A stretch of 43,982 nt of DNA. Origin: Pseudobdellovibrionaceae bacterium (lineage in GTDB: Bacteria > Bdellovibrionota > Bdellovibrionia > Bdellovibrionales > Bdellovibrionaceae). Under the pieces are notes generated by a model. That model did no database searches. It saw only the letters and a program-made list of their open reading frames with translations, and had not been told where the DNA came from. A program made the position numbers and the translations under genes. Of this stretch, positions 4,227 through 43,982 are shown piece after piece. The stretch is taken from positions 1 through 43,982 of the forward strand of contig JAHBUU010000005.1 of the NCBI GenBank assembly GCA_019637895.1, written 5' to 3'. Each line of letters begins with the position of its first letter. The stretch's first letter is position 1.

Positions 4227-8447
<4,221 letters not shown>

Positions 8448-8488
8448 GACGGATTGAATTGGTTGAATTTTAATTAAAGAGGTGAAGC

Positions 8489-12619: not shown

Positions 12620-12627
12620 ATGAAGCG

Positions 12628-12652
12628 GATGGGGCTGAAAAACAGCCCCATC
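12628..12652 (+). terminator. Hairpin after rpoC
   Basis: A perfect 10-bp stem GATGGGGCTG/CAGCCCCATC has an AAAAA loop, starting 9 nt after the rpoC stop. No T-run follows, so intrinsic termination is doubtful. A role as an mRNA 3' stabiliser or a factor-dependent terminator before the str operon is possible. A second, smaller repeat (ggcc/ggcc) lies at about 12664-12676. Confidence 0.4.
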
Positions 12653-12701
12653 TCGAAAGAAACGGCCTTAGAGGCCATGAAAGTTTTTGAAAAACTAATT
12701 C

Positions 12702-12730
12702 TTGACCAGGACGCAGGGAGCCGATAACTT
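12702..12730 (+). promoter_or_regulatory. Candidate str operon promoter
   Basis: TTGACC (12702-12707) is a good -35. The -10 is uncertain: GATAAC at 12723 (15-nt spacer) or TAACTT at 12725 (17-nt spacer). It lies about 50 nt before the rpsL start and after the rpoC hairpin, so it is well placed for a separate str transcript. Confidence 0.35.
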
Positions 12731-12780
12731 CCGGCGTCCCGATCCCAGGATACAGGTTTTTTATTTTTTAGAGGTAAACC

Positions 12781-13155
12781 GTGCCGACAATTAACCAGCT
12801 CATCAAACGTGAGCGTGTCGTTCAGAAAAACCAGACAAAGTCTCCGGCTTTGAATAACTGTCCTCAGCGCCGCGGTGTTTGCACTCGCGTGTACACGACG
12901 ACTCCTAAGAAGCCGAACTCGGCTCTCCGTAAAGTCGCAAAAGTTCGCTTGTCGAACGGCTTTGAGGTCATCTCCTACATCCCGGGTATCGGTCACAACC
13001 TGCAAGAGCACTCTGTTGTTCTGATTCGCGGGGGCCGGGTAAAAGATCTTCCAGGTGTTCGTTACCACATCGTCCGTGGCGTTCTTGACTTGCAAGGCGT
13101 GAACGGCCGTCTCCGTAGCCGCTCGAAATACGGCGCGAAAAAGCCTAAGAAATAA
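12781..13155 (+). CDS. rpsL: 30S ribosomal protein S12 (uS12)
   Basis: S12 sits at the decoding centre and controls accuracy. The 124-aa protein has the start PTINQLI, the loop [18 protein letters not shown] and the second loop [13 protein letters not shown], with lysines at the two streptomycin-resistance positions (wild type, predicted sensitive). The start codon is GTG 12781, with tagaggt upstream; ATG is absent at this position. First gene of the str operon, 12 nt before rpsG. Confidence 0.98.
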
Positions 13156-13167
13156 AAGGGAAAGACA

Positions 13168-13641
13168 ATGTCACGTCGTAAAAAAACGCTTAAGCGCGAA
13201 GTAATTCCAGATCCAGTTTTCAAAGACATCGTTGTTGCGAAATTCGTTAACAAAATGATGATCCAGGGCCGCAAAGCAACGGCTCAAAAGCTGTTCTACG
13301 GTGCTTTGGATGAAATCAAAGTCAAAGTTCAAGGCGAAGAGCCAATCGCGGTTCTGAAAAAAGCTTTGGAAAACGTCAAGCCTTCCATCGAAGTCCGCTC
13401 CCGCCGTGTCGGTGGTGCGACTTACCAAGTTCCGACTGATGTTCGTCCATCCCGCCGTCTTGCCTTGGCAATGCGCTGGTTGGTTGAGTACAGCCGTGCT
13501 CGCGGTGAGAAAGACTATGCGAAGAAACTCGCTGGTGAGCTCATCGACGCTTACAACAACCGTGGTAACTCCATCAAAAAACGTGAAGACGTTCACAAGA
13601 TGGCAGAAGCCAACAAGGCGTTCTCTCACTACAACTGGTAA
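13168..13641 (+). CDS. rpsG: 30S ribosomal protein S7 (uS7)
   Basis: S7 nucleates assembly of the 30S head and touches the E-site tRNA. The 157-aa protein shows the N-terminal [15 protein letters not shown] segment, [15 protein letters not shown], the [16 protein letters not shown] hairpin and a C-terminus ending KAFSHYNW. Starts at ATG 13168 behind aaaggga. A strong terminator follows directly, so unlike the classical str operon rpsG is not continuous with fusA. Confidence 0.98.
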
Positions 13642-30632: not shown

Positions 30633-30656
30633 GCGGCATGCGTTCATCGCTTGAAA

Positions 30657-30690
30657 AAGAAAAGGCTCCTTGCGGAGCCTTTTCTTTTTT
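30657..30690 (+). terminator. Bidirectional terminator between convergent units
   Basis: A stem of 13 or more pairs built on AGAAAAGGCTCC/GGAGCCTTTTCT with loop TTGC is flanked by A-runs on one side and six Ts on the other. It can end the plus-strand thioredoxin unit and the minus-strand operon that stops at 30793. The intervening 30691-30792 carries no gene. Confidence 0.92.
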
Positions 30691-30792
30691 GAAGATCGTT
30701 TTGCTTTTTGAGCGGGCTTGGAGATCAAGACCACTTGCCGGGATGAGCGGCCGGAGGATCTGTCCCACGCTGCTTCGCCGGATTTGCGGCTT

Positions 30793-32766
30793 CTAGAGGC
30801 CGAGGCGTTTCTTGAGTTGCTCAGCCGCTTTTTTGGCTTCGTTTTCAACGCCTTTTTTCGCTGAATTTTCTGCGTCTTTCTTGGCCTTTTCTTTTTGGGT
30901 TTCGACTTCTTTCTTTTTGGAGTCGGCCTGGGCTTGCAGTTTTTTGACCTCGCCGTCGACTTGATTTCGCAATTTTGCGATTTCGGTGTCGATTTGTGCC
31001 TTGGTTTTTCCGACCTGCTCTTGGACGTAAGCTTCGATTTTGGCTCTGGCCTCGGCGATCTTCGCGTTGATTTCACGCGAAAGGCCTTTCTGCAGCTCTG
31101 GCCCCAGGTTGGAGTTCACACTGGTATTGATCCTGGGAAGAGTTCCCGAGAATCGGGCATCCAAGGTCACGGCCGGCATTCCGTTGAAAACTCCTTTGAG
31201 CAGCGACGAGACGACCTCGTTCTTGGCGGAAATATTGTAAGCCACATTGTTGAACTGGTTGCCGAGTCGCAGTTCAAACTCTCGCAGGGCCCGCAGTGAG
31301 GACTGTACGTTCACGGCGCCATTCGCTTTGTCGAACGCGATATTGACGTCCGACCCTTTGATCAGATCACGGCCGACGATGGGATAGCTTCCGACATTCA
31401 GCAATAGCTCGATCAAGCTGGCCTCACCTCGGTTATCGACGGTGAGCTTGGTTGAAAAATCCCGAATTTCCATTCCTGGGAAATCGCCCGCCAGATTGGC
31501 AATGGTGGGCTTGCGGGTCAGAACCTGATTGGTCGTGACGTCGAGGATCTCGCCTTTGATGTTTCCAGCATGTGGGGAGGTCCCGGCCTGAGAGCTGACG
31601 GCTGTTCGTTTCAGCCAGAAAAGAGGGTACGAGTTCGGGCGTCCAAATTCGTAGCTGACGCCTGAGGCTCGGGGCCTTGGCTGAATGGCAGGATCGGCTT
31701 CTTTGCCGCCTTTTTTCATCAGATTTGGCGGAACGTATTTTTCAGCGAGGGCGCGATAGGTCTGAAACTTATTGAGATAAGGATCCAGGTACTGCTTGAA
31801 CAGCGCGGCGACCAGGGCTTTCGGATCGAGGCTGGGAATTCGGAACCGGGTTTCCAGGGCCTTGATATCGGCTTTGATCTGCGCCTCCAGGGCCTTGACG
31901 TCGGCATTCGCCTTTTTCAAGTCACCATCCAGATCTTTGCCCGCAGCTTCGATGGTTTTGATCTTGGCGTCGGCGTCTTTGAAAATGCCATCAAGTTCTT
32001 TAAGGCTGTCTTGGAGTTCCTGTGGAGATTTGAAGTCCTTGGTTTTCACTTTTTTCAGGCGTTGTTCGAGCGCCTGGAGATCAGAACCTTGTGGCAGGGT
32101 TTTGAGGCGTGTTTCCCAATCCTTTTGTTTGCCTTTGACCCAGGTGTCGAGTTCCTGCGCCATCTTTTTCGAGGCTAGGGACTCTTCGATTTTGCTGAGT
32201 TGGACCTGGGAATCCGTTCCCGCTAGGATGCTGGCCAGATCACCGAAGACGTTCTCATTGTAGTCTTCTTGAACTTTTTCGAGCGCCTGCCCCTTCAGTT
32301 TTTCTCCCTCTTTGGCGAGGAATCCTGGCTCGTTGCTTTCGATGATCGGTTCTGGCGGCTTGACCCAACCTTTCGAAGGACGTGGTTTGCCGAACTCAAT
32401 CTGTTCGACCACCGCTTCGTTGATGACGATCTTGGCGCGCAGAAGGGCATCCCACAGCATCCCGAAGCGAACCTCGCCGACGCTGACCGAGTTTTTCATC
32501 GGGCTTTCGGAATTCGTCACGTCGATTCCGGCGATTCGCATATGGGCTTTGAAGAAGCTCGTTTCGAGCTCGCGCACGTCGACCTGCACACCCATCGCAC
32601 TGGTCAATCCCCACTGGAGCGCCATCCGCAGATGAGTGTCCATGAAGAATTTCGCGTAAAGCGAGAACAGAATCACCAGAACCACAACGGGAAGGACGGC
32701 TTCCCAACGAATCGGGCCTTGGCGCTTTTTCTTTTTCGGAACGGCGGTGTTGTCTGCTTTTGTCAT
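30793..32766 (-). CDS. TIGR03545-like AsmA-type envelope protein
   Basis: Function unknown. The 657-aa protein has a Lys-rich cytoplasmic start, one membrane span (about residues 22-41), then an AsmA-like N-terminal segment (ALQWGLTSAMGVQVDV, then VGEVRFGMLWDALLRAKIVINEAVV). A coiled coil covers about 215-310 (repeated KALEAQIKADIKALE pattern), and a beta-rich AsmA/DUF748-like C-terminal half follows. The last 100 residues are a highly charged Lys/Glu/Ala coiled coil. The gene pair with a TIGR03546-type protein is a known conserved pair in outer-membrane bacteria (from memory). Role in lipid or protein handling across the periplasm is inferred from the AsmA resemblance. Starts at ATG 32766, 12 nt from the upstream gene. 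Last gene of the operon. Confidence 0.75.
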   Translation of the reverse strand: MTKADNTAVPKKKKRQGPIRWEAVLPVVVLVILFSLYAKFFMDTHLRMALQWGLTSAMGVQVDVRELETSFFKAHMRIAGIDVTNSESPMKNSVSVGEVRFGMLWDALLRAKIVINEAVVEQIEFGKPRPSKGWVKPPEPIIESNEPGFLAKEGEKLKGQALEKVQEDYNENVFGDLASILAGTDSQVQLSKIEESLASKKMAQELDTWVKGKQKDWETRLKTLPQGSDLQALEQRLKKVKTKDFKSPQELQDSLKELDGIFKDADAKIKTIEAAGKDLDGDLKKANADVKALEAQIKADIKALETRFRIPSLDPKALVAALFKQYLDPYLNKFQTYRALAEKYVPPNLMKKGGKEADPAIQPRPRASGVSYEFGRPNSYPLFWLKRTAVSSQAGTSPHAGNIKGEILDVTTNQVLTRKPTIANLAGDFPGMEIRDFSTKLTVDNRGEASLIELLLNVGSYPIVGRDLIKGSDVNIAFDKANGAVNVQSSLRALREFELRLGNQFNNVAYNISAKNEVVSSLLKGVFNGMPAVTLDARFSGTLPRINTSVNSNLGPELQKGLSREINAKIAEARAKIEAYVQEQVGKTKAQIDTEIAKLRNQVDGEVKKLQAQADSKKKEVETQKEKAKKDAENSAKKGVENEAKKAAEQLKKRLGL

Positions 32767-32778
32767 GGTCGTCCTCGA

Positions 32779-33303
32779 TTAAAGATAAAGTTTTTCGTAA
32801 GTGGTGTACCAGGCGTAGAACTTGGTCGCGGTCCAGGCCTTCCAGATCTTTGTTTCCTTGAATCGGGCGACGAAGGTCGCTCGGTATTTCAGGATCAATG
32901 AGCGGAAAATGAAAAAGGCGGGGATGGCGAGAAGCACGCCGACCACCATCGAGCCCATCACGATGCTGTTGTTGAATCGGGTGAGCGGAACCAGCGGCAT
33001 ATTGTAAAGGCTGACGAACAAGGGGCGCAGTCCTTCGTTTTCGAGAACGGCCCGTCCAAGGGCGTCGGCCAAAGGATCAACGAGCCAGGCGACGAATTTG
33101 AAAAAGAAGGCGGCCATGAAAGCGGCCCCGATTTGAATTCGGAAAAAGAGCAGTACGAACAGCAGAATGAGGGTCTGCAGGCTGAGGAACGGAGAGAACC
33201 CCAGAATGATCCCGCAGGAAAGACCGGCGGCGAGTTGATTGTGGCCGGTGTCCGAATTCAGCATGCGGAAAAAGGCGAAAAGTTGTTTCAGTAAGAGAGT
33301 CAT
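32779..33303 (-). CDS. TIGR03546/DUF2062-like inner-membrane protein
   Basis: The 174-aa protein has three or so hydrophobic segments (about 26-54, 56-76, 112-138) and short Arg/Lys-rich ends. The P-x-x-x-A-x-G and GxxxGFSPF pattern (AGLSCGIILGFSPFLSLQT) resembles DUF2062 proteins. ATG 33303 is set by GGAGGAGG just upstream. That site lies inside a hairpin (see separate feature). It is paired with the TIGR03545-like gene 12 nt downstream, which suggests the two work together. Function unknown. Confidence 0.75.
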   Translation of the reverse strand: MTLLLKQLFAFFRMLNSDTGHNQLAAGLSCGIILGFSPFLSLQTLILLFVLLFFRIQIGAAFMAAFFFKFVAWLVDPLADALGRAVLENEGLRPLFVSLYNMPLVPLTRFNNSIVMGSMVVGVLLAIPAFFIFRSLILKYRATFVARFKETKIWKAWTATKFYAWYTTYEKLYL

Positions 33304-33306
33304 CGA

Positions 33307-33346
33307 GCCTCCTCCGCAAAGCCTAAATGGATCTGCGGAGGGAGGC
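33307..33346 (-). promoter_or_regulatory. Hairpin masking the ribosome site of the TIGR03546-like gene
   Basis: A 12-bp stem with one bulged base (33307-33318 with 33334-33346) has a 15-nt loop. In the minus-strand RNA the 3' arm contains the GGAGGAGG ribosome site, so the helix would hide it. No T-run follows on the minus strand, so this is not an ordinary terminator of the upstream gene. Confidence 0.55.
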
Positions 33347-33390
33347 AAAGGCTTGGGGGCTTGACGCGTTGTTGAGAGCGCCGGGTTCGA

Positions 33391-34416
33391 TCAGATTTCT
33401 TTTTTGAGCAGGACGTAGTCGTGGGTCCAAAGCGGCGTCGCCTTTTTTTTGTAGCTTTCCGATTGAGCGCCGGTTTTGACCAAGGCCGTGATCATTTTGG
33501 AATGCCCCTTGGCGAGGGCGGCTGTGGCTTGCAGATAGGTCAAGGCATTCGAAAGGCCTTTTCCTCGGGCTTCGTTGCGAACCGCAACCGTCTTGAGAAC
33601 CAGGTAGCCCTGATCCACGAACCCGTAGAAAAATCCGACTTCCTTGCCGTTTTTATCCAAGACGAAGAAAGAATAAGAAAGATCAGCTTTTTTCATGGCG
33701 GGGACATAAATTCCCGCGAAGCCTTGGGGATCCAGGGGCTCGAACAGAAAGTTGTCGCGGAAACCCTCCATACTGATCTCGTAGAGCGCGGGGATCTCGT
33801 GGGATTCGAGGCGGTCTGCATCCACTGGACGGAACGAATACCCTTCTTGCGCAGCCCGCTCGTAGGCTGGTCGGCACTTTTCGGCGTAACCCTGGAGATC
33901 TCCGAGACCCACGGACTGGTAGCTTTCACAAACGGTGAAACCACCCTCCATCCAAACCTGCGGGTACTCCTTGGGCTGAAAGGGCTCCCAGGAAAAGGTC
34001 AGCTCGTCATCTTTAGGGAGTCCGAATCGATAGGGGAACCAGGTGTTGTAATTCAAGGGTCCGTAAACGGTTTTCACCCCTTTGGACTTCAAGAAAGCTT
34101 CGGCCTCATGAAGCAGGCCCTTCCCAATGGCGAGGGCTTCTTTGGTGGAGGTGTCGGTTTCGAAGAATCCGATGAAGCCGACGTCGGGATTGGTCAGGGA
34201 CACATTGGCGCCGATGCGTTGATGTCCGCTTCGGGTGACCCAAAACTCCGTCGGACGGGGAAAAGGCAGTTGAAGCAGGCTCACCCAAAGCGGAGCCGGC
34301 CACAGCAAAGGGGCCTCTTTCGCCGGACGAACGGCAGAAGGGACGCTCGAGAAGATCTTTGCGAACTCGTCGAAGCGGCCTTCGGCTCTGGCTTGGGAAC
34401 GTGTCCAAAATTCCAT
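33391..34416 (-). CDS. GNAT-family acyltransferase-like protein
   Basis: A 341-aa protein with a GNAT C-terminal domain: the acyl-CoA-binding motif A appears as VAVRNEARGKGLSNAL (about 275-291), followed by the beta5/alpha4 region and a final WTHDYVLLKK. The N-terminal half looks like a second, degenerate GNAT unit that has lost motif A. A central motif GPLNYNTWFPYRFGL followed by FQPKEYPQVWMEGGF (about 115-165) is a hallmark of a subgroup of large uncharacterised GNAT proteins. It starts at ATG 34416, 2 nt after the PEP-enzyme stop, so it belongs to the same operon. Substrate unknown; an acyl transfer to an amine or lipid intermediate is a guess. Confidence 0.7.
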   Translation of the reverse strand: MEFWTRSQARAEGRFDEFAKIFSSVPSAVRPAKEAPLLWPAPLWVSLLQLPFPRPTEFWVTRSGHQRIGANVSLTNPDVGFIGFFETDTSTKEALAIGKGLLHEAEAFLKSKGVKTVYGPLNYNTWFPYRFGLPKDDELTFSWEPFQPKEYPQVWMEGGFTVCESYQSVGLGDLQGYAEKCRPAYERAAQEGYSFRPVDADRLESHEIPALYEISMEGFRDNFLFEPLDPQGFAGIYVPAMKKADLSYSFFVLDKNGKEVGFFYGFVDQGYLVLKTVAVRNEARGKGLSNALTYLQATAALAKGHSKMITALVKTGAQSESYKKKATPLWTHDYVLLKKEI

Positions 34417-34418
34417 GA

Positions 34419-37145
34419 TTAGGACCTCAGGATGCGGACTTCACCGCGTCCAGCATCGATGCGCACGCGCATTCCTGTTTTCAGTTTCGTCATGAGTCCT
34501 CCGGAAATCCCAACGATCGTCGGAAGTCCCAGTTCGCGAGCCACGACCGCCGAGTGTGACAGCAGAGAGCCTCGTTCGATCAAAAGACCCGAGCAGGCCG
34601 GGTACAGCGGTACCCATCCTGGATCGGTCCGGCTGGTGACAAGGATTTCCCCATTGAGACCTTCGGCATCTTTCGGATCCTTGGCGACTCGAACGACCCC
34701 TTCGATGACTCCAGGACAGCAAGGGGTTCCAATCAGAACGTCTGGATCCGTCGAAACCGGCGCCTCGGAGGCCAAGAGATCGCTCTCCAAAAGGATCTGC
34801 GGGTACAGCGAAGAAACGGCCACATTTCCTTTGGTCATGAGGCGATCTGGCGGTGGGATTTCCTCGTTGAACTGTGCGAACTCTTTTTTGCGAGCGTCGG
34901 CGAGGGTCCGAACTTGCAATGACGAGGCTCTGCCTTCATCCAGAGAGACTAGCTCTTCGATGGTCAGGAAAAAGATGTCCTGAGGTTCAGACAGCAATCC
35001 GAGCTGCTGGTACTTTTCCCCCATGGCGCGGAACAGATGGCGGGCGATCCCGAAGATCTTTGTTCGAGCAAAGCGCAGGTTCTCGCGATTGCGAACGGCC
35101 TTCCTGGTCTGTTTGACCACCCAGAAATAGATCGCTCGTTTTGGGCCACCCAGAAGGCCTCGCGCCTGCTCTTCGGCCTTGGAGCGGATTTCGACTTCGC
35201 GTTTCTCCATCGCCTCGATGGAGTAGGACTTGGTGCGGATATAGGAAACGACCGAGTTGATGGCGAACTCGGGATTGTCATGCAGATCGGATTCCTCGAG
35301 TTTCAGCTCGTTGATGCAGCGGAAACCGTACTTATCCAGGAAGATCTCGAGCTGCTGGGCAAAGAAAGATGATTTGCGATCGCTTCGCAGGGATTTGAGG
35401 ATATCGGCATTGCTCTGGGTGAGGATCCAGTCGCGTTCAGTCGTGTCCTTGAGATCCAGGTGGGCGGCAATTCGCATCAGCATCTTTGTCGGTTCCGTGC
35501 TTTCGAGGTCGCCCTGTCCGCATAGAAGATCATTCTGCAGACTGGCCCCGTCGTTGCCTTGGGCGACCCAGTTTTCAGTCAGCTTCTTCAGCAAGCCGAA
35601 AAAGATCATGCATAAATAGTCGTTGATGATCGGCGCCTTCCAGTTCTTGAGCATCTTGTTCTCGAGATCGTGGTAATGCTCCATCAGATCCGTGAGGCTG
35701 AGCTTGCGGAATTCGGTCTTGCGGGCCTTGTCGTACTCGCGATCAAAATTTTCGCGGAAGTCGTTGACGATCCGGTCGATTCGATTGAATCGCCAGAGTG
35801 TCGAACCGATCAACGTCATTCGGTGAAGGAAGCTGTACTGCGGAGGGTTTTTCGTAAAATCGAAAAGGCCCGCCATTTCTGGTTTCAGTTTTTGTTTCAC
35901 GCCCATCATGGTTTCCATGAAGGCCTTGTTGTTGGCCGATCCCGGAAGCATCAGAACCAATCGATACCAGTTGATGAGGTTGTAATAGATCCGTCCGCGA
36001 ATCTGTCCAAGCATGTTGCGATACATGCTTTCGTGGGATTCGATCATCTCGGCGGGAACACCCATCACTTGGCAGAACTGGATATAAACCTGGCGGTAGG
36101 CTCGGGCCGCAAAACTGAAGGTCAGCGGGGAGGTCACTCCACTATAGGATTCGATGATATTCGAGTTGTCCCAGAGAAAAATCCGTTCGCCCTTGAGGTT
36201 GTCGGCGAAAAAAATGTCCGGAGGGATATTCGTGATCGGTCGCGTTTGAACACAGAACAGTTTGCCTTTTTCGAAGGCCCATTCGCAGTCTTGCGGTGAA
36301 CCATAGGACTTTTCCAGATCCAAGGTGAGCTTGGCGACTTCGAGGACTTGGGTATCTGTTAGGCTTGAGGCCTTGGCTTGGGATTCGGGGATGGCTTTCT
36401 TTTCGAGTCCTCCGCCAGCCTTGGAGAACAGTCCTTCATTCTTTTCGACGATGGTGCTGGTGATCTTTTTGCTGTCACGGTGGACTTCGAAACTGTCGGC
36501 GTCCAACTCGCCCGAGACAAGGCCTTCGCCAAGACCCCAAACCGAGCTGACAAGCAGATGATCGCGGTCAAGAGCCCGGATGGGATGCCGTGAAAAGGCG
36601 ACACCGGCTGACTCGGCGAAGATCATTTTCTGAATCACCACGCCCATGCTCAGATTTGAAACGGGAAGACCTTTTTGCAAACGATAGCTAAGGGCTCGCT
36701 CGGAGTACGCCGAGGCCCAACAGAGCTTGAGTGAGGTCTCGATCTGCTCGAGGCCTTTTTGGAAAAGATAGGACGAGAATTGGCCCGCGAAAGAGTGTTC
36801 TGCCGAGTCTTCGTCGAGTCCGCTTGAGCGAACGGCGACGAAGCTGTCTTCGAGGGAATTTTTATTCAGCTCTTTGGAGATTTCCTCGTGCAGGCTTTGA
36901 GGAATCCGCGCAGTCGTAAAGAGCTCTTCGACATATTTTGAAAAAGAGGCCGGAGTTCCCTGGAACTCGAGCTTGTCTTCGAGATGATTTGAGCGAAGGA
37001 ACTCTTGGAAGGCTTCGGCCCCGACGCAGAACCAGCCTGGAACAGGAAAGCCCCGTGAGGACATGATCGCCATGTTGGTGGCTTTGCCTCCGCAAGAGGA
37101 GCGGAATGTTTCGATGGAATCGTGGGTGGTTAAGATGCGTTTCAT
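34419..37145 (-). CDS. PEP-synthase/rifampin-phosphotransferase-like enzyme
   Basis: The 908-aa protein joins an N-terminal PEP/pyruvate-binding ATP-grasp domain (GGKATNMAIMSSRGFPVPGWF, VAVRSSGLDEDSAEHSFAGQF, then CEWAFEKGKLFCVQTRPI) to a C-terminal swivelling domain with the phosphohistidine motif LLSHSAVVARELGLP, catalytic H864. The long middle region (about 320-740) is unlike the PEP/pyruvate barrel of PpsA; no C-terminal barrel exists. This layout is that of rifampin phosphotransferase and phenylphosphate-synthase-type enzymes, which phosphorylate an alcohol or phenol using ATP. The true substrate is unknown. It overlaps the UbiA gene by 4 nt (ATGA). Confidence 0.8.
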   Translation of the reverse strand: MKRILTTHDSIETFRSSCGGKATNMAIMSSRGFPVPGWFCVGAEAFQEFLRSNHLEDKLEFQGTPASFSKYVEELFTTARIPQSLHEEISKELNKNSLEDSFVAVRSSGLDEDSAEHSFAGQFSSYLFQKGLEQIETSLKLCWASAYSERALSYRLQKGLPVSNLSMGVVIQKMIFAESAGVAFSRHPIRALDRDHLLVSSVWGLGEGLVSGELDADSFEVHRDSKKITSTIVEKNEGLFSKAGGGLEKKAIPESQAKASSLTDTQVLEVAKLTLDLEKSYGSPQDCEWAFEKGKLFCVQTRPITNIPPDIFFADNLKGERIFLWDNSNIIESYSGVTSPLTFSFAARAYRQVYIQFCQVMGVPAEMIESHESMYRNMLGQIRGRIYYNLINWYRLVLMLPGSANNKAFMETMMGVKQKLKPEMAGLFDFTKNPPQYSFLHRMTLIGSTLWRFNRIDRIVNDFRENFDREYDKARKTEFRKLSLTDLMEHYHDLENKMLKNWKAPIINDYLCMIFFGLLKKLTENWVAQGNDGASLQNDLLCGQGDLESTEPTKMLMRIAAHLDLKDTTERDWILTQSNADILKSLRSDRKSSFFAQQLEIFLDKYGFRCINELKLEESDLHDNPEFAINSVVSYIRTKSYSIEAMEKREVEIRSKAEEQARGLLGGPKRAIYFWVVKQTRKAVRNRENLRFARTKIFGIARHLFRAMGEKYQQLGLLSEPQDIFFLTIEELVSLDEGRASSLQVRTLADARKKEFAQFNEEIPPPDRLMTKGNVAVSSLYPQILLESDLLASEAPVSTDPDVLIGTPCCPGVIEGVVRVAKDPKDAEGLNGEILVTSRTDPGWVPLYPACSGLLIERGSLLSHSAVVARELGLPTIVGISGGLMTKLKTGMRVRIDAGRGEVRILRS

Positions 37146-38029
37146 GGGACCATCCTTGCAAGAAGCGGAAACCAGATGTGAAGAATCAATGACAGCGTCG
37201 CGAGACCTTCGACCATCTTGTATTTTTCAGGGCGTCGGAGGACGACATAGGTCAAGAAAAAAGCGAGCGGAGTCAGGAGAGGGAGGAAGAGTGCGCAGAA
37301 TCCCACCTGCCCGAAGAAAAGGGAGTCTGCGAGCATCATCGCCCCGGCCAGTGCAACAAAGGCTGTCGCAATGATGATGAGACCACTTTTAGGGGCGCCA
37401 TAGACGTGCAGATAAGTTCTGAGCATAGGGTGGGCCTTGGGATCGAGTTTCCGACAGACCTCATATCCAAAGAACGAACCCAAGACCATCAGCGCCCAGT
37501 CGAAACCGGCCGAGTTGTAAAGATCCGCAGAGATGATATCGGCCGTTGAATGCAGGGAAAAGGAAAACAGGGACAAGGGAATCAGAATTACCTGGTGACT
37601 AAGGCCATAGAGGAACATGCGTTGTTCGAGCCAGGAACCGATGTAGAATTCTCGGAACATCAACCACAGATAAATCGTCACGACTCCGTAGAGAAGTCCC
37701 GCGGTGGGTGAGAATGAAAAAAGAATGAGGGCGGCGATTGCCATGATGATGGCTAGCAGGCGGATCGCTCTTTCGACCTGAATGGGCTTAAGGACTCCTC
37801 GGGGAAGGGGGCGGGTCGGATTTGCGATCTGATCCTTTTTGAAATCTTTGAGTTCGTCCATCATGCGTAGTTCCGCGAAAAAAAGTGCGATGAGGACGAA
37901 GCCCAGGAGGACCTTCCAGTCGAAAGCTTCGTTCGAGAGCGCCCAGCCGGACAAGGCAAGGCCACCGGCCAAGAGGCCATAGGCGGGAATCGGAAGTCTT
38001 TCGCGAATGAAAACTAACCAAGCGCCCAT
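37142..38029 (-). CDS. UbiA-family prenyltransferase
   Basis: Integral membrane enzyme that transfers a prenyl group to an aromatic or other acceptor. The 295-aa protein has the first Asp-rich motif as D58-E59-x-x-D62-x-x-x-D66 (usually NDxxDxxxD), followed by the standard NPTRPLPRG. The second motif region (FGYEVCRKLDPKAHP) is degenerate, with few aspartates. About eight hydrophobic spans follow. The start at ATG 38029 is set by AAAGGAG; a longer upstream frame has no matching features and overlaps the ligase. It overlaps the ligase end by 16 nt. The acceptor is unknown; this is not the ubiquinone or heme O enzyme as far as I can tell. Confidence 0.82.
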   Translation of the reverse strand: MGAWLVFIRERLPIPAYGLLAGGLALSGWALSNEAFDWKVLLGFVLIALFFAELRMMDELKDFKKDQIANPTRPLPRGVLKPIQVERAIRLLAIIMAIAALILFSFSPTAGLLYGVVTIYLWLMFREFYIGSWLEQRMFLYGLSHQVILIPLSLFSFSLHSTADIISADLYNSAGFDWALMVLGSFFGYEVCRKLDPKAHPMLRTYLHVYGAPKSGLIIIATAFVALAGAMMLADSLFFGQVGFCALFLPLLTPLAFFLTYVVLRRPEKYKMVEGLATLSLILHIWFPLLARMVP

Positions 38030-39411
38030 GGGGCTCCTTTCGACAATGATGCAAATCGATCGATGCGTGCCCGGTGACGAGCGTCTCTTTGAATTTTGAC
38101 AACGGTTTGACCCGACAACGAAAAATCTTTGAAAAGATCGGGCGTGAGATCTTCGCCGAAGAGCCAAGGGCCTCGCGGAGTCGGCTGAACAAAGGCGCGA
38201 GAGTGCTTGAGCTCGTTGAAAATCTTTTGTTCGACGAGGAAGAGTTCTTGGTCTTGTTGGGAGCGACCCATATACCACCACCCCTGCTCATCGCTGAGGA
38301 CTCGGTCGCCCATATTGTGCCAAAGAACTCCGTTTTCACGTTTCTTGTTGGCGCGGTTTTCCGGGGAATCTCCGCCCCAATATTCGGGACCGACATGGAG
38401 ACCTGAGATCCAAACGGTATTCGCTTCGACTCGTGAGGACAGTTGTGGCACGGGCTTTCCCAGATACAAGGTCTGAAAATAACCTCGGTCCTTGGATTTC
38501 TGAACGGCTTCATGAGCATCGGCGACGGCGACGGGTTCGGCCTCGCTGCTGCCGTAAATATGGCTCCAGTGAGCCATTGGCCAATGGTGGAAGCCTTCTT
38601 CAAAGAGAGAAACGTCGGTCAGGGCTCCGCCGATGTGAATGCTTCGCAAGGAGGGGAGTCCACCGTTCGAGAGGAGAGTTTTCAGAAAGGCGGGCCCTGC
38701 GGTCATAGTTTCCGGAAGTTGGTCAGTCGAGAGCTGGCTGATCGCGCGGAAGTCTTTCTTTTTCCAGCCTGGAGGGACGATGACGGACCCGCGGCCGGAA
38801 GCAAGGTTCGCCAAGGCGAAGTTTGCAAAGATACAAAGATCCGGTGTCGAAAACTCTTCTAAACCCAAGGCCTCGTTGAGGACCTGATGTTGGGCTCGCA
38901 TATAGCCGTGAGCGCGAAGCACGCCTTTTGGCAGCCCCGTCGTTCCAGAAGTGAAAGTCAAAATTCCAGGAGAGTCGGCCTCGACATTCTCGATTTGCAG
39001 GTCGCCGTGGCTGTCCCAAGCCTGTTGTGGCCAGATCCAGTGGGGAATTTTTCGAATGGCCGGGATTCGCAGTCCCCAGAGGCGCCCTTTCCAACCCGCG
39101 ATAAAATATCGTGGCTGGATCTTTTCGATCAGAAGAGCGATGCGATCAGCTTTCATCCACGGTTCGACGAAGAGAATGCAGGCCCCTTGAGCCAGACAGG
39201 CCGTGACCATGGCGTAGAGCCGAGGACTGAGAGGATCCATCAGCAGGACATAGTCGCCCTTTTTAAGACCCTTGGATTTTAGATGGTTTTGAACACCGCC
39301 GCTTCGACGGGATAGCTCATGGAAGCTGACTGGCTCGTTGCCAGGCAACCACAAAGCCATCCGATCCGGATGGCGCTCGGCCTTTTCCACAAAAAGACTA
39401 ACCGTGTTCAA
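38014..39411 (-). CDS. AMP-dependent acyl ligase (OleC-like subgroup)
   Basis: Adenylate-forming enzyme of the ANL superfamily. The P-loop reads FTSGTTGLPKGV (about residues 150-161). The A5 region is HIYGSSEAEPVA, followed later by the hinge-proximal NMGDRV and WWYMGR. The sequence FANFALANLASGRGSVIVP resembles the OleC group of beta-lactone synthetase-like ligases, as does the C-terminal RHxAxI. The A10 catalytic lysine (normally RHNAKI or GKxDR) is arginine here: RHRARIDR, R449 with this start. The start TTG 39411 is set by GGGGAG; TTG 39438 has no site. Product length 465 aa. Substrate unknown. Confidence 0.8.
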   Translation of the reverse strand: MNTVSLFVEKAERHPDRMALWLPGNEPVSFHELSRRSGGVQNHLKSKGLKKGDYVLLMDPLSPRLYAMVTACLAQGACILFVEPWMKADRIALLIEKIQPRYFIAGWKGRLWGLRIPAIRKIPHWIWPQQAWDSHGDLQIENVEADSPGILTFTSGTTGLPKGVLRAHGYMRAQHQVLNEALGLEEFSTPDLCIFANFALANLASGRGSVIVPPGWKKKDFRAISQLSTDQLPETMTAGPAFLKTLLSNGGLPSLRSIHIGGALTDVSLFEEGFHHWPMAHWSHIYGSSEAEPVAVADAHEAVQKSKDRGYFQTLYLGKPVPQLSSRVEANTVWISGLHVGPEYWGGDSPENRANKKRENGVLWHNMGDRVLSDEQGWWYMGRSQQDQELFLVEQKIFNELKHSRAFVQPTPRGPWLFGEDLTPDLFKDFSLSGQTVVKIQRDARHRARIDRFASLSKGAPWALG

Positions 39412-39472
39412 AGAAAACTCCCCTCTCTCTTTTATCAATCAGAAGAGAGATTGGGAGGACCGGGATCGAAAG

Positions 39473-39501
39473 TTCCCGCCCTCCGTCGGGGAGGGTGGGA
39501 A
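39473..39501 (-). promoter_or_regulatory. Hairpin between the PLP enzyme and the ligase
   Basis: Inverted repeat of 12 pairs with one mismatch on the transcribed strand (39473-39484 with 39490-39501), 5-nt loop. It falls in the 98-nt gap between the two genes. The T-run is weak, so it may attenuate or set an mRNA processing point inside the operon. Confidence 0.4.
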
Positions 39502-39509
39502 CAAAGGTT

Positions 39510-40775
39510 CTAGATTTTTTTGAGAGCTTGTTCGAGGTCCGAGAGCAAGTCCTTGGTGTTCTCGAGGCCGACACTGAGGCGAATCAACCGGGGATCGATG
39601 GAAGAGGCATCACGTCGCTCTTCGGGAACCGCCGAGTGAGTCATGAAGCCCGGAACTTCGACCAAGGTCTTCACGAGACCAAGGCTTACGGCCAAGGTGA
39701 CGGTGTAAGAGTTTTCCGCCAAGTCATCCACGAAGCGTTCGCATTTTTCCGCCGAGCCTTTCAGACGGAAAGAGATCATCGTCCCAGGACAAAAATCCCC
39801 CTCTGGAGACCGGAGGAGTTTTCGGGCCAGTTTGTGCTGAGGATGGGACTTCAGACCTGGATAAATGACACTTTCCACTTTTGGATGGGATTCCAGATAC
39901 TGAGCAACCTTCATCGATGTTCTTTGTTGCTGTTCGAAGCGCAAAGATTGCGTTGAAACCCCAAAGACCAGAATATGCCATGCCGACGAAGGGTGGATCA
40001 CGGCTCCGAAATCTTTGCGAGCGACCTTGAGGATCGGTTCGAACTCTTTGCGGGTGATGATGGCGCCGCCCATTTCGGTTCCGAAGCCCGAGATATTTTT
40101 AGTCAGACTTTGGATGACGAAATCCACTCCCCAGTCGAGGGGCCGCAGGGACCAAGGTGTCGCAAAGGTATTGTCCACCACGATCCGGATCGGGTTTTTT
40201 CGTTTGGCATTTTCCTTTTTGACCAAGCGAACGACGCGCTCCAGATCGATGAGTTCGAGCATCGGATTGGAAATGGTTTCAAAGTACAAAACGGAAACGG
40301 CGGGGTCTTTCAATTCGGTTTCCAGATCCTTCGAATTGAAATCCAACATTTTCGACGTGATGCCGAAGCGTGGAAGCCAGTTTGCGATCAGGCTGTCTGT
40401 GCAGCCGTAAAGTGTGCGGTGAGCGAGGATTTTCCGGTCCTTCTCGAGCAAAGACAGCAAAAGGGCTGAAATCGCGCCCATGCCGCTTCCGAAGCAGACG
40501 GCTTTGTCGCCGCCTTCCATTGCCGCGATCTGCTCTTCGAGCATCAGCGTGGTCGGCTCATCGAGGCGGTCGTAAACCCAGATCGGTTTTTTATCAGAGG
40601 CCTTCAGGTTGGCGAAGGAGGTGAACCCTTGAGCTCCGCGCTTGAGTGATTTCAGGCGGAAGGTCGTCGAGGCCGTCATCGGTGGGACGAGATGGTGGGA
40701 GAACTCCCAAGCATCCGTGGATGAGGGGCCGTGGATCGAGCGGGAGCGAGGAGAAAGGCTTTTCTTTTTTGTCAT
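39510..40775 (-). CDS. Cys/Met metabolism PLP-dependent enzyme
   Basis: Fold-type I PLP enzyme of the cystathionine gamma-synthase/methionine gamma-lyase family. The 421-aa protein has the PLP-lysine motif SLTKNISG (K226), YFETISNPMLELID (the PLP-facing region), IVVDNTFATPWSLRPLDWG and the C-terminal LIRLSVGLEN. The usual YxRxxNPT at about residue 70 reads YDRLDEPTT, so Asn-Pro-Thr is Glu-Pro-Thr. It has an N-terminal extension containing HGPSSTDAWEFSHHLVPPMTASTTF. Reaction cannot be fixed from sequence. Starts at ATG 40775, overlapping the upstream stop by 4 nt (ATGA). Confidence 0.88.
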   Translation of the reverse strand: MTKKKSLSPRSRSIHGPSSTDAWEFSHHLVPPMTASTTFRLKSLKRGAQGFTSFANLKASDKKPIWVYDRLDEPTTLMLEEQIAAMEGGDKAVCFGSGMGAISALLLSLLEKDRKILAHRTLYGCTDSLIANWLPRFGITSKMLDFNSKDLETELKDPAVSVLYFETISNPMLELIDLERVVRLVKKENAKRKNPIRIVVDNTFATPWSLRPLDWGVDFVIQSLTKNISGFGTEMGGAIITRKEFEPILKVARKDFGAVIHPSSAWHILVFGVSTQSLRFEQQQRTSMKVAQYLESHPKVESVIYPGLKSHPQHKLARKLLRSPEGDFCPGTMISFRLKGSAEKCERFVDDLAENSYTVTLAVSLGLVKTLVEVPGFMTHSAVPEERRDASSIDPRLIRLSVGLENTKDLLSDLEQALKKI

Positions 40776-41776
40776 GGTTCCTCCACCGTGGATTCGATTG
40801 TTGAAAGAGATGTGCGGTCTTTGCGTTGAATGTAAAGAAGGGCACCGATCGCTCCGAAGATCGCGGTCATGACCTGCTGAGTGGTGATGACAATGGCGCC
40901 GATATCGGATTCGTAACCCAGGTACAAATTGAACAGAACCAGGAAGGCGGCCTGACCGACACCGAGTCCTGCTGGAGAGATGGGAATGGCCGTTGCCATA
41001 TAGCCAAGAGGGGCCACAAGGAAGAAGGTTTTCAGGCTGACATCACCGAAGCCAGCAGCCTGGGCGGCGATCCAGAGGAAAACCACGGCCAGCGATTGCG
41101 AAAGGAAACTCAGCACGAGCGTCCAGATCACGCGTTTTCTCTGCAATCCGAAGCGGTGGGCGGTTTCGTAAAGTTTCAAAAATTTCGCCGAGAGGGGGAG
41201 CTTTCCAAGCAGGCCTTCGAGAAAGCCCGTTTTTTTAAAACGCCGGGAAAAAATGGACAGAAAGAACAGAGAAACGGCCCCTGCGAGCAGGAACAACAGG
41301 ACATACAGCGTTCGCAGAGTCGGTTGATCCAGGACATGCCGGTAGTCGTAGGTCATCGCCAAAACTGCCATCAGAATCATCGCGTAGAGTCCGAGGACAC
41401 GGTCCAAGATGACAGAAGTGATCGCTGCGGCCCGTGCTTGAGGGTGATCCTTACCGAAGTAGTAGGCTTTGACGACGTCGCCGCCGACACCGCCGGGCAT
41501 GGCATAGTTGAAAAACACACCGATCAGAGTCAGGCGGAAAACTTCGAGGGGACCGGCCGGAACATTCTGGGGGGTGACGAGGATTCTCCAACGCTCACTG
41601 GTGAGCCAGAGATTCAGTCCGATCAAAATGAAGCCAAGAATGACAAGAGGACTTCGGAACAGGGCCGAGGCGGCATGCAGATCCAGGCGGTCGGTCGCGA
41701 CCATCCAGCCGATGAGACCACCGGCCAAGAGGAACTTGAAAAGGGAACCAAGGATCGATTTCAGTCTTTCGGTCAT
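40772..41776 (-). CDS. LPG_synthase_TM/UPF0104-family membrane protein
   Basis: The 334-aa protein has about eight hydrophobic spans and the family landmarks LTSERWRILV, FFNYAMPGGVGGDVVKAYYF and ISPAGLGVGQAAFL. These match the membrane part of lysylphosphatidylglycerol synthase and the UPF0104/AglD2 group, some of which are lipid-carrier flippases or transferases. The soluble lysyl-transferase part is missing. ATG 41776 has no ribosome site, and a hairpin ends 2 nt before it. It sits with LPS genes upstream and a possible lipid pathway downstream. Confidence 0.82.
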   Translation of the reverse strand: MTERLKSILGSLFKFLLAGGLIGWMVATDRLDLHAASALFRSPLVILGFILIGLNLWLTSERWRILVTPQNVPAGPLEVFRLTLIGVFFNYAMPGGVGGDVVKAYYFGKDHPQARAAAITSVILDRVLGLYAMILMAVLAMTYDYRHVLDQPTLRTLYVLLFLLAGAVSLFFLSIFSRRFKKTGFLEGLLGKLPLSAKFLKLYETAHRFGLQRKRVIWTLVLSFLSQSLAVVFLWIAAQAAGFGDVSLKTFFLVAPLGYMATAIPISPAGLGVGQAAFLVLFNLYLGYESDIGAIVITTQQVMTAIFGAIGALLYIQRKDRTSLSTIESTVEEP

Positions 41777-41778
41777 TT

Positions 41779-41808
41779 ACGTGCCGGAACGAGGGCCGCC
41801 CGGCACGT
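41779..41808 (-). promoter_or_regulatory. Hairpin abutting the UPF0104-type start codon
   Basis: A perfect 9-bp stem ACGTGCCGG/CCGGCACGT has a 12-nt loop and lies between kdsA and the membrane-protein gene. On the minus strand its 3' arm ends 2 nt before the ATG, and there is no Shine-Dalgarno sequence. It may limit translation of the downstream gene or act as a processing/termination point after kdsA. Confidence 0.45.
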
Positions 41809-41815
41809 TCCGTCC

Positions 41816-42664
41816 TTAAAAGTGGGTTGCCCAGATCTTTTGCAACGATTTGAGCAAAGGGCCAAGCTCTTTCAGTGGGAGGGAGGTCGGACCGTCGCAG
41901 AGAGCTTTCTCTGGATTTGGGTGGGTTTCAAGGAACAACCCGTCGACGCCGACCGCCAAAGAGGCGCGGGCCAGAGGGGCCACCATTTCGGATCTGCCGC
42001 CAGAGCTTTCGCCCGTGGCACCTGGAAGCTGGGTCGAATGGGTGACGTCCATGATGACCGGGAAACCCAAGCGGCGCATTTCGACAAGGCCTGTCATGTC
42101 GTTGATGAGGCGGTTATAGCCGAAGGTGGTTCCGCGCTCGCAAAGAAGGAGGTTCTTGTTGCCGGCTTGCACGGCTTTTTGTGCGATGGCCTTCATATCC
42201 CAAGGCGCGAGGAATTGGCCTTTTTTGATGTGAATGACTTTGCCGGTTTTTGCGGCGGCCACCATCAAGTCCGTCTGGCGGGACAGGAACGCCGGGATCT
42301 GGATGACATCGGCGACTTTGGCCATTGGTTCGACCTGATAAGTCTCGTGAACGTCAGTCAAAAGCGGGCAGTCCAAAGCTGTTTTGATTTTTTCCAGGGA
42401 CTTCAGGGCTTCTTCGACGCCGGGACCGCGAAAGCTGCTCGAGCTTTGACGGTTGGCCTTGTCATAAGAGCATTTCAGGATCCAGGGGATTCCAAGCTCG
42501 CGAGTCACCCGTTGGATTTCTTTCCCGGTCTCGAGGACCATTCCTTCGTCTTCGATGATGTCGGGACCGGCGAAGAGCACGAAGCTTTTGCCATCACCCC
42601 AGGTGATTTTTTGAGAACCGTGGGTCAGGGTCACTGGATTTGCGAGAGGTGCGAAAGTCTGCAT
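41816..42664 (-). CDS. kdsA: 3-deoxy-8-phosphooctulonate synthase (KdsA)
   Basis: Condenses PEP with arabinose 5-phosphate to KDO 8-phosphate for lipopolysaccharide. The 282-aa protein has the SYDKANRQSSSSFRGPG block, TDVHETYQVEP, IHIKKGQFLAPWDM, CERGTTFGYNRL, MDVTHSTQLPG and ETHPNPEKALCDGPTSLPL. The metal-ligand position that is Cys in metal-dependent and Asn in metal-free enzymes is Asp here (FAGPDIIED, D35), while the other ligand-type residues are kept. Starts at ATG 42664. Its presence indicates an LPS-bearing outer membrane. Confidence 0.95.
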   Translation of the reverse strand: MQTFAPLANPVTLTHGSQKITWGDGKSFVLFAGPDIIEDEGMVLETGKEIQRVTRELGIPWILKCSYDKANRQSSSSFRGPGVEEALKSLEKIKTALDCPLLTDVHETYQVEPMAKVADVIQIPAFLSRQTDLMVAAAKTGKVIHIKKGQFLAPWDMKAIAQKAVQAGNKNLLLCERGTTFGYNRLINDMTGLVEMRRLGFPVIMDVTHSTQLPGATGESSGGRSEMVAPLARASLAVGVDGLFLETHPNPEKALCDGPTSLPLKELGPLLKSLQKIWATHF

Positions 42665-42678
42665 TTCTAATTCCTTGC

Positions 42679-43794
42679 TTACGCCAGAGCGTTTTTAACG
42701 GCCGCAATCACGCGGTCTTGAGTGGCTTCGTCCATATCGGGATACATCGGGATGCTGATGACATGATCAGCGGCCCAGCGTGCGTTCTCCAAAGAACCCA
42801 CCGATTTGGAGGCGTGCTCTTTGTACCATGGTTGATCCGGCATGATGCGCGGATAATGGATCGAAGTCGGAACGCCGGCTTCGGTGAGTTTCTTTTGGAA
42901 GGCGTCGCGATTGCCGATGGTCAGGGTGTACTGAGCCCAAACACTTTGGCGATCAGAGCGGACTTTCGGAGTTTTGAAATCCTGAGCTTTGATCGACGAG
43001 AAGGCATCGTTGTAGCGGTTGGCGACGCGATTTCGTTGTTCAACCTCCCAATCATAGCGACCGAGCTTTGACAGCAAGATCGCGCATTGAATGGTGTCGA
43101 GACGGGCATTCATGCCCAGGCGAGTGTGGTAGTAGCGGCTTTCGGAACCATGCTCGCGAATTTCCTTGAGGGCCTTGATAAGCTTTTCGTCATTCGAGAA
43201 AATCGCGCCCCCGTCGCCGTAGCAACCGAGAGGTTTTGCAGGGAAGAAGCTCGTGCCCGCAACCAAGGAAGCGTTTCCGCTTTTCACGTCTTTGTAGCGA
43301 GCGCCGTAAGATTGGGCGGCGTCTTCGAGGACGATCAGATTGTGTTTTTTCGCAATGGCATTGATGGCATCCATGTCCGCCATTTGCCCGTACAGGGAAA
43401 CGGGAATGATGGCTTTGGTTTTCGGCGTGATGGCCGCTTCGATTTTGGAAGCATCGATGTTGAAGGTATCAGGTTCAATATCGACATAGACCGGAGTCGC
43501 ACCAGCCAGAACGATGATTTCGGCAGTCGCAATGAAAGAGAAAGCGGTCGTGATGATTTCGTCGCCGGGCCCGATTCCAAGAGCCATCAGTGGAAGCAAA
43601 AGAGCGTCTGTCCCGTTGGCGCAGGACAAAGCGAATTTGCTGCCGGTGTGTGCGGCGAGCTTCTGTTCGAATTCCGCGATTTCGGGGCCGTTGATATAGG
43701 CGCCGTGATCGAGCACTTTGTGAATGCGGGCGTCGATGTCTTCTTTCAGGGCTTTGTATTGCGCTTTGAGATCGATAAACGGAACGGGCTGCAT
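42679..43794 (-). CDS. DegT/DnrJ/EryC1 sugar aminotransferase, WbpE-like
   Basis: PLP-dependent aminotransferase of nucleotide-sugar biosynthesis. The 371-aa protein closely follows Pseudomonas WbpE, which aminates UDP-2-acetamido-3-oxo-glucuronate for O-antigen: PFIDLKAQ, HGAYINGPE, CANGTDAL, YVDIEPDTFN, PVSLYGQMADMDAINAIA, EDAAQSYGA and the PLP-lysine motif FFPAKPLGCYGDGG (K187). ATG 43794 is set by ggagg; a longer frame begins 20 codons upstream but lacks a site. First gene of the minus-strand operon, 14 nt before kdsA. The exact sugar is inferred. Confidence 0.92.
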   Translation of the reverse strand: MQPVPFIDLKAQYKALKEDIDARIHKVLDHGAYINGPEIAEFEQKLAAHTGSKFALSCANGTDALLLPLMALGIGPGDEIITTAFSFIATAEIIVLAGATPVYVDIEPDTFNIDASKIEAAITPKTKAIIPVSLYGQMADMDAINAIAKKHNLIVLEDAAQSYGARYKDVKSGNASLVAGTSFFPAKPLGCYGDGGAIFSNDEKLIKALKEIREHGSESRYYHTRLGMNARLDTIQCAILLSKLGRYDWEVEQRNRVANRYNDAFSSIKAQDFKTPKVRSDRQSVWAQYTLTIGNRDAFQKKLTEAGVPTSIHYPRIMPDQPWYKEHASKSVGSLENARWAADHVISIPMYPDMDEATQDRVIAAVKNALA

Positions 43795-43846
43795 GGGGCC
43801 TCCAGCAAGTTTAAATATGGGCTGATCATGCTCCTCTCGGCGGGAA

Positions 43847-43982
43847 ATGTCCACTGTGGCGCTCGGGACACAGGACGTGTGGAACTTTCAACCGCTCTCG
43901 GTGTTGACGGTCCGAATCATCCTCGGAACGCTGGACCTCTCGAGAGTCTTTTGGTGGAATCAGTTTATGATTCCTGTCGTGA
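43847..43982 (+). CDS. Possible start of a divergent gene (partial)
   Basis: An open frame from ATG 43847 runs off the window edge (45 codons), with many third-position G/C bases like the other genes here. The translated part (MSTVALGTQDVWNFQPLSV, then a hydrophobic segment ending RVFWWNQFMIPVV) could be the start of a membrane or exported protein. The ribosome site is weak (ggcggga). If real, it diverges from the sugar aminotransferase across a 52-nt gap. I do not recognise it. Confidence 0.4.
   Translation, partial: MSTVALGTQDVWNFQPLSVLTVRIILGTLDLSRVFWWNQFMIPVV

Follow-up and report, generated by a model that had tools for sequence, protein, structure and literature searches.

A putatively mobile four-gene cassette in Bdellovibrionota and a candidate envelope-lipid pathway around it

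Four genes on the minus strand of the window (the whole 43,982-nucleotide stretch analysed, from contig JAHBUU010000005.1 of a Pseudobdellovibrionaceae bacterium) encode an AMP-forming (ANL) ligase, a UbiA-family membrane enzyme, a PEP-synthase-like phosphotransferase (PEPS), and a tandem GNAT N-acyltransferase (Table 1). Judged from gene neighbourhoods, the linkage of these four genes is beyond chance, that of an adjoining PLP-enzyme gene is not, and the evidence for genetic linkage of the wider system is strong. On balance, we judge it slightly more likely than not that positions 33391-39411 are a horizontally mobile four-gene cassette at the centre of a conserved system, which would make an amine-bearing envelope lipid and export it towards the outer membrane.

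Table 1. Features of the cassette and its flanks (window positions).
Feature	Position	Strand	Basis
Tandem GNAT N-acyltransferase	33391..34416	-	Pfam Acetyltransf_7/1/6, AlphaFold2 model, fold search
PEP-synthase-like phosphotransferase (PEPS)	34419..37145	-	PPDK_N + PEP-utilizers, NCBIfam, PDB
UbiA-family membrane enzyme	37142..38029	-	Alignments A1/A7, PDB profile match, fold search
AMP-forming (ANL) ligase	38014..39411 (ORF open to 39438)	-	PF00501, NCBIfam
Stem-loop between PLP and ANL genes; outside cassette	39472..39502	-	RNA fold
Cys/Met-metabolism PLP enzyme; flanking, outside cassette	39510..40775	-	PF01053, TIGR01328
LPG_synthase_TM flippase-like; flanking, outside cassette	40772-41776	-	Pfam/NCBIfam
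KdsA; flanking, outside cassette	41816-42664	-	Pfam/NCBIfam
DegT aminotransferase; flanking, outside cassette	42679-43854	-	Pfam/NCBIfam
TIGR03546; flanking, outside cassette	32779-33348	-	NCBIfam
TIGR03545; flanking, outside cassette	30793-32766	-	NCBIfam

The cassette is inserted in a conserved gene run

A sequence-only reading of the window had described five minus-strand genes, from the PLP enzyme to the GNAT protein, as one operon. ORF calling recovered all five at the same coordinates, and the family assignments agree with Pfam for each, the UbiA protein scoring below the gathering threshold and being supported by its fold. Three of the four junctions also stand: ANL and UbiA overlap by 16 nt, UbiA and PEPS overlap by 4 nt, and PEPS and GNAT are separated by 2 nt. 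The overlap reported for the PLP and ANL genes is wrong; these lie at least 71 nt apart (71 nt with the ANL ORF taken as fully open, 98 nt with a start at TTG 39411), and the real 4-nt overlap joins the PLP gene to the upstream flippase gene. TTG 39411 is the likely ANL start, as it is preceded by a good ribosome-binding-type sequence (AGAGGGGAG) and gives an MN(C/T)V start that is common to relatives. The UbiA ORF opens at 38281, and ATG 38029 matches the start positions of relatives. The gap between the PLP and ANL genes holds a predicted stem-loop of two 6-pair halves (folded stretch -24.4 kcal/mol, z -2.2), which is terminator-like but followed by only UUU, a weak U-tail, and is a probable transcript boundary. 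Elsewhere in the window, a strong intrinsic-terminator-like stem-loop with 19 pairs and a T-rich tail (30651-30692, plus strand) lies between convergent genes.

The PLP enzyme is of the methionine gamma-lyase/cystathionine synthase type (PF01053 at 6e-104; 330 bits against TIGR01328, below the cutoff of 550). A sister genome (G001) lacks the cassette and has the order DegT-KdsA-flippase-PLP, one unrelated opposite-strand gene, TIGR03546, and TIGR03545; its flanking run follows the order of the window at 71-87% identity. In G002, likewise without the cassette, the PLP gene ends the same DegT-KdsA-flippase-PLP run, and TIGR03546 comes directly next. The window cassette, ANL-UbiA-PEPS-GNAT, is thus an insertion at a variable slot of a conserved run. 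No PLP gene neighbours any other cassette examined (neighbour tables were built with a simple ORF caller). An operon of all five genes, with the PLP enzyme providing a building block made from an amino acid, would fit adjacent genes on one strand, but the 71-98 nt gap with its stem-loop, the retention of PLP by the cassette-free genomes G001 and G002, and the lack of PLP at the other cassettes examined make it exceedingly unlikely. We therefore rejected PLP as a fifth member and take the unit to be ANL, UbiA, PEPS, and GNAT. The DegT-KdsA-LPG_synthase_TM-PLP run (window 40772-43854), kept in G001 and G002, itself looks like a surface-sugar operon with an unexplained methionine-gamma-lyase-type enzyme.

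The four-gene core recurs across phyla

The four genes recur together in dozens of genomes, in the same or shuffled order, and are thus anything but rare neighbours. The suggestion that they form no textbook pathway also holds: in the open-access literature searched, we found no published description of the set (topics covered were UbiA/PEP synthase/ANL clusters, DUF3419 in Bdellovibrio, OleC/OleBC with UbiA, and Bdellovibrio lipids). ANL, UbiA, PEPS, and GNAT have the same order in three genomes of a different family within the order (G059, G047, and G056) and in a Gemmatimonadetes MAG (L025), and they are rearranged in a Proteobacteria MAG (L027), where an AurF-type diiron oxygenase gene lies beside the cassette copy (L027:7525-8505). 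The core is also found in further genomes near these Gemmatimonadetes and Proteobacteria MAGs. Most Bdellovibrio-genus genomes examined have the system, with the pathway intact. The survey rests on a search across genomes; a single-sequence scan of genome contigs gave 3 loci only, and a plasmid search found no close copies. One cluster in a MAG filed as Euryarchaeota (L026, PBUX01000067.1) encodes proteins 97-99% identical to those of L025, the Gemmatimonadetes contig, and is probably a misbinned contig and no archaeal system.

Sequence features of the core proteins

The ANL ligase matches PF00501 (2.9e-34), and its best NCBIfam match is PRK09274, followed by AA-adenyl-dom and OleC-type models. 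Its nucleotide-binding P-loop is intact (TSGTTGLPKG; family motif TSGTTGxPKG). The catalytic A10 Lys of ANL adenylating enzymes is replaced by Arg in the window protein (DARHRARIDR), so the enzyme may not adenylate normally. Arg occupies A10 in the GNAT-type ANLs in which the motif was found (RDxRHRARIDR), and formyl-type ANLs, described below, have Lys. At many other loci, ANL and UbiA are fused as one protein, which provides a direct link between the two enzymes.

The UbiA protein scores 27.7 bits in Pfam, below the gathering score of 34.2, and far below every NCBIfam cutoff. Its family membership is established by a profile match to the PDB entry of DGGGP synthase (6m31) and by the predicted fold (model pLDDT 91), for which 6m31/7bpu and 4od5 were retrieved with a TM of 0.72, DGGGP synthase being the best match. 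In common with archaeal DGGGP synthase and other UbiA enzymes, it has the UbiA fold and the Mg-binding motif 1, here in the form DE..D..D (D58-E59..D62..D66, with RPLPRG; family motif NDxxDxxxD). Unlike in those enzymes, the second aspartate motif DxxxD is missing, and an ExxRK (E190xxR193K194) that is invariant in the 29-row alignment A7 stands in its place. Prenyl transfer is therefore not assured.

PEPS consists of an ATP-binding domain, a middle domain, and a phosphohistidine swivelling domain (His864). Pfam reports PPDK_N and PEP-utilizers only, and the PEP/pyruvate barrel is absent. This layout, with the phosphohistidine kept and the barrel absent, is like that of rifampin phosphotransferase (Rph) and the prodigiosin ligases. 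The protein scores 910 bits against PRK06241.2-2 (cutoff 883), 339 bits against rifampin phosphotransferase, and 345 and 359 bits against PigC and RedH, both under their equivalog cutoffs of 1300 and 1350; in the PDB it matches Rph at 2e-80. Every full-length PEPS copy has the phosphohistidine motif SHxA(V/I)(V/I)ARE.

The GNAT protein (Acetyltransf_1/6/7) was modelled by AlphaFold2 as a tandem two-domain GNAT (pLDDT 94) that keeps the CoA-binding loop R284-GKG in the C-terminal domain. The top PDB folds are tandem GNATs (3tt2, MAB_4324, glucosamine N-acetyltransferase 5kf2, and mycothiol synthase 2c27), and the modelled fold is closest to small-amine acetyltransferases. Bacterial ceramide synthase is also a GNAT-type enzyme, and the sequence-only reading had been reminded of it. 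That likeness gained no support: ceramide synthase is absent from the fold matches, the comparison covering solved structures, of which it may have none; no sphingolipid gene lies nearby, and no Spt-type gene occurs among the conserved neighbour families.

Recurrent neighbours extend the core

At 49 loci found through UbiA, the recurrent neighbours are DUF3419, a GNAT or a formyltransferase, a reductase of ~680 aa, an NAD_binding_4 reductase, a DAGK-type lipid kinase, a LolC/LolD-like exporter, a LolA_like carrier, a probable beta-barrel (a label taken from sequence appearance only), P450, and MMPL. UbiA has strong matches in 113 of 369 genomes of the phylum. It co-occurs with DUF3419 almost perfectly (both in 110 genomes, one only in 3 and 11, neither in 245; Fisher 1e-76, kinship ignored) and similarly with the reductase (101/12/9/247; Fisher 3e-65, kinship ignored). 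Relatedness inflates these p-values, and several of the exceptional genomes are incomplete. The sister genome G001 lacks UbiA, the reductase, and DUF3419 alike. In genus g140, the core and DUF3419 are both present in eight genomes, of which seven give no match to the reductase.

The genome of the window carries DAGK, SDR, the ~680-aa reductase, LolC/D-like, LolA_like, barrel, and DUF3419 genes on another contig (C211), the DUF3419 gene being cut by the contig end. As DUF3419, the reductase, and the exporter are on a different contig, they are tied to the window cassette by their co-occurrence and by the neighbourhoods of other genomes. The DUF3419 protein at locus L064 matches PF11899 over the full length at 8e-65. 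In Pfam, DUF3419 is the family to which the betaine-lipid enzyme BtaA belongs (PMC6642084); BtaA uses SAM to form diacylglycerol-O-homoserine (PMC10685587, PMC6642084). The C-terminal half of the ~680-aa thioester reductase matches acyl-ACP reductase (AAR) and the N-terminal domain of PigE, in both sequence and structure searches, and the protein keeps the ACLAET cysteine. Its N-terminal ~310 residues, which have no Pfam domain, are all that is matched by stand-alone ORFs in four genomes (G116:C49, G098:C5, G096:C17, and G086:C512). Exporter genes match LolD and LolCE, the carrier matches PF17131 (LolA_like), and some clusters have an MMPL protein instead. A lipid kinase and an NAD(P) reductase accompany the core in the usual case, as does one or the other of these export systems. 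P450 genes are present at 11 loci, and P450, AurF, and metallo-hydrolase (MBL) genes vary between loci. A conserved membrane protein beside DUF3419 (L025:17069-18463 and L165:13890-15263) looked by eye like a phytol/dolichol kinase; Pfam and NCBIfam gave no support, and the assignment was dropped.

Two cassette types and a possible HMG-CoA reductase front end

In the comparison of the two types, 26 loci have a GNAT gene and 18 have a formyltransferase gene, and none has both; the GNAT gene is conserved with the core at 30 of the loci examined. At formyl-type loci, an alpha/beta-hydrolase is fused to or lies beside an OleC-like ANL whose A10 residue is still lysine (DPRHHSKVEY). Genus g6 has cassettes of both types at one chromosomal slot, with identical kinase and ligase neighbours (L067 and L071 versus L064, L066, L069, and L076). 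Locus L079 (G075, 7252-13384) is a mosaic, in which GNAT-type ANL, UbiA, and GNAT genes accompany an opposite-strand PEPS from the formyl-type clade. The PEPS tree requires only 2 changes for the GNAT/formyl split. Because this makes the split mostly one old divergence, its p-value is overstated and the interchangeability of the two enzymes is suggested and not proven, and we discounted a single conserved function argued from that p-value alone. The simplest reading of these gene contents would be that one amine is acetylated in some lineages and formylated in others.

Outside the phylum, clusters without the reductase often hold HMG-CoA reductase (HMGR). The HMGR gene lies in the cluster at 11 loci, all from genomes without an AAR-like match, and 10 genomes with AAR have HMGR on other contigs (Fisher 3e-6, kinship ignored). 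We rejected HMGR as a general marker: its presence is uninformative because all 51 of the 51 genomes tested have one, and what is informative is its position in the cluster together with the missing AAR. The AAR and HMGR routes may be equivalent, both leading from a thioester to an alcohol that the kinase could phosphorylate. In genus g140, neither the reductase nor HMGR lies beside the core. Within or beside three clusters, HMGR is fused to a C-terminal APH/EcKL-type kinase (L153:2954-5725, L162:12714-15551, and L163:1768-4566); the fusion was confirmed by Pfam for the first two and by similarity for L163.

Candidate product and alternative readings

The sequence-only reading had suggested that the five genes could give an envelope lipid or small molecule. 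The envelope-lipid role gains support from the co-occurring DUF3419, lipid kinase, thioester reductase, and LolCD/LolA-like exporter. As DUF3419 is the BtaA family, the lipid proposed here, as inferred from gene content, would bear an aminocarboxypropyl group derived from SAM, with acetyl or formyl on its amine. The reductases and the kinase would yield a phosphorylated lipid alcohol, to which DUF3419 would attach the 3-amino-3-carboxypropyl (homoserine) group of SAM. GNAT would acetylate the amine of that group, which other lineages would formylate instead. The parts played by ANL, UbiA, and PEPS are guesswork. ANL might bind ATP and act on a carboxylate, perhaps that of homoserine, despite the Arg that replaces its A10 Lys. 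UbiA might add a chain of (poly)prenyl or similar type, taken from its diphosphate, and PEPS might phosphorylate an intermediate through its phosphohistidine. The Lol-like genes would then export the lipid towards the outer membrane.

A diffusible prenylated or alkylated specialised metabolite (a pigment, signal, or antibiotic) could also be assembled by ANL, UbiA, PEPS, and the N-acyltransferase, tailored by P450, AurF, and MBL proteins, and secreted by an ABC or MMPL pump. The relationship of PEPS to the prodigiosin ligases PigC and RedH and of the AAR-like protein to PigE points this way, as does the patchy, mobile distribution, and the tailoring genes, which are present at some loci and vary between them, would fit a secreted small metabolite too. 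The LolA-like carrier, Lol-type exporter, and lipid kinase suggest a lipid, however; DUF3419 is a lipid-enzyme family, the pathway is intact across most of the Bdellovibrio-genus genomes examined, and no ketosynthase or NRPS was identified beside the cassette. We regard such a metabolite as rather unlikely.

We consider it improbable that the cassette belongs to an isoprenoid or quinone-type pathway already known (UbiA chemistry like that of chlorophyll, menaquinone, or archaeal ether lipids) and has incidental neighbours. The UbiA fold and motif 1, DGGGP synthase as the nearest structure, and HMGR inside some clusters agree with it, whereas the replaced motif 2, the NCBIfam scores far under every cutoff, and the near-perfect co-occurrence with DUF3419 and AAR do not. 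The set is moreover missing from the sister genome G001, and it can therefore be no core quinone step. A catabolic or detoxifying unit would account for the resemblance of PEPS to Rph; in it, an antibiotic or xenobiotic would be phosphorylated by PEPS and acetylated by GNAT, in the manner of rifampin phosphotransferase and of GNAT enzymes that confer resistance. We hold it to be very unlikely, since ANL-UbiA fusions and the coupling to AAR, DAGK, DUF3419, and Lol-like export are a poor fit to inactivation and the same set occurs in unrelated phyla.

It is less likely than not, though plausible, that the product is a new class of bacterial envelope lipid. Such a lipid would carry a homoserine-derived group, N-acetylated or N-formylated, joined through UbiA-type chemistry and a phosphohistidine phosphotransferase, and a dedicated Lol-like route would take it to the outer membrane, both in predatory Bdellovibrio and in unrelated phyla. 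About 12 co-occurring families across one phylum that recur in others usually have one defined product, and the presence of the system in most Bdellovibrio-genus genomes examined makes it testable in a genetically tractable predator. An outer-membrane lipid of this kind could bear on the distinction of self and prey, on envelope stability during predation, or on how the predator is shielded from enzymes of its own. It would also bring to lipid biochemistry a combination of UbiA, PEP-synthase-like, and BtaA-like proteins that is as yet uncharacterised. For annotators, the conserved context is a basis against labelling such genes, each taken singly, as 'phosphoenolpyruvate synthase' or 'prenyltransferase'.

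Comparison with known pathways

The BtaA/BtaB betaine-lipid (DGTS) pathway has the DUF3419 family in common with the system described here, as a predicted activity. It includes the N-methyltransferase BtaB, a member of a very broad methyltransferase family, and no such enzyme was identified among the conserved neighbour families. Unlike that pathway, the present system has a GNAT or formyltransferase together with ANL, UbiA, PEPS, AAR, and a dedicated exporter. The prodigiosin/undecylprodigiosin pathway has relatives of PEPS (PigC/RedH) and of the C-terminal half of the ~680-aa reductase (the PigE N-terminal domain), but scores are far under the PigC, RedH, and PigE cutoffs, neither the aminotransferase half of PigE nor pyrrole genes were identified, and UbiA and DUF3419 are present here.

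The OleABCD long-chain olefin pathway (OleBC) resembles the formyl-type variant in its alpha/beta-hydrolase fused to or adjoining an OleC-like ANL and in the similar C-terminal motif of that ligase. Against the OleC beta-lactone synthetase model, however, the formyl-type ANL scores 214 and the window ANL 67 bits, both below the equivalog cutoff of 900; no OleA thiolase was identified, and in the window the ANL carries Arg at A10 and is without a hydrolase. In common with LolCDE-LolA lipoprotein trafficking, the system has a LolD-like ATPase, a LolCE-like permease, and the LolA_like carrier. It differs in scoring under the Lol equivalog cutoffs, only one permease gene was seen, and its exporter genes are adjoined by lipid-biosynthesis genes and the beta-barrel-like protein.
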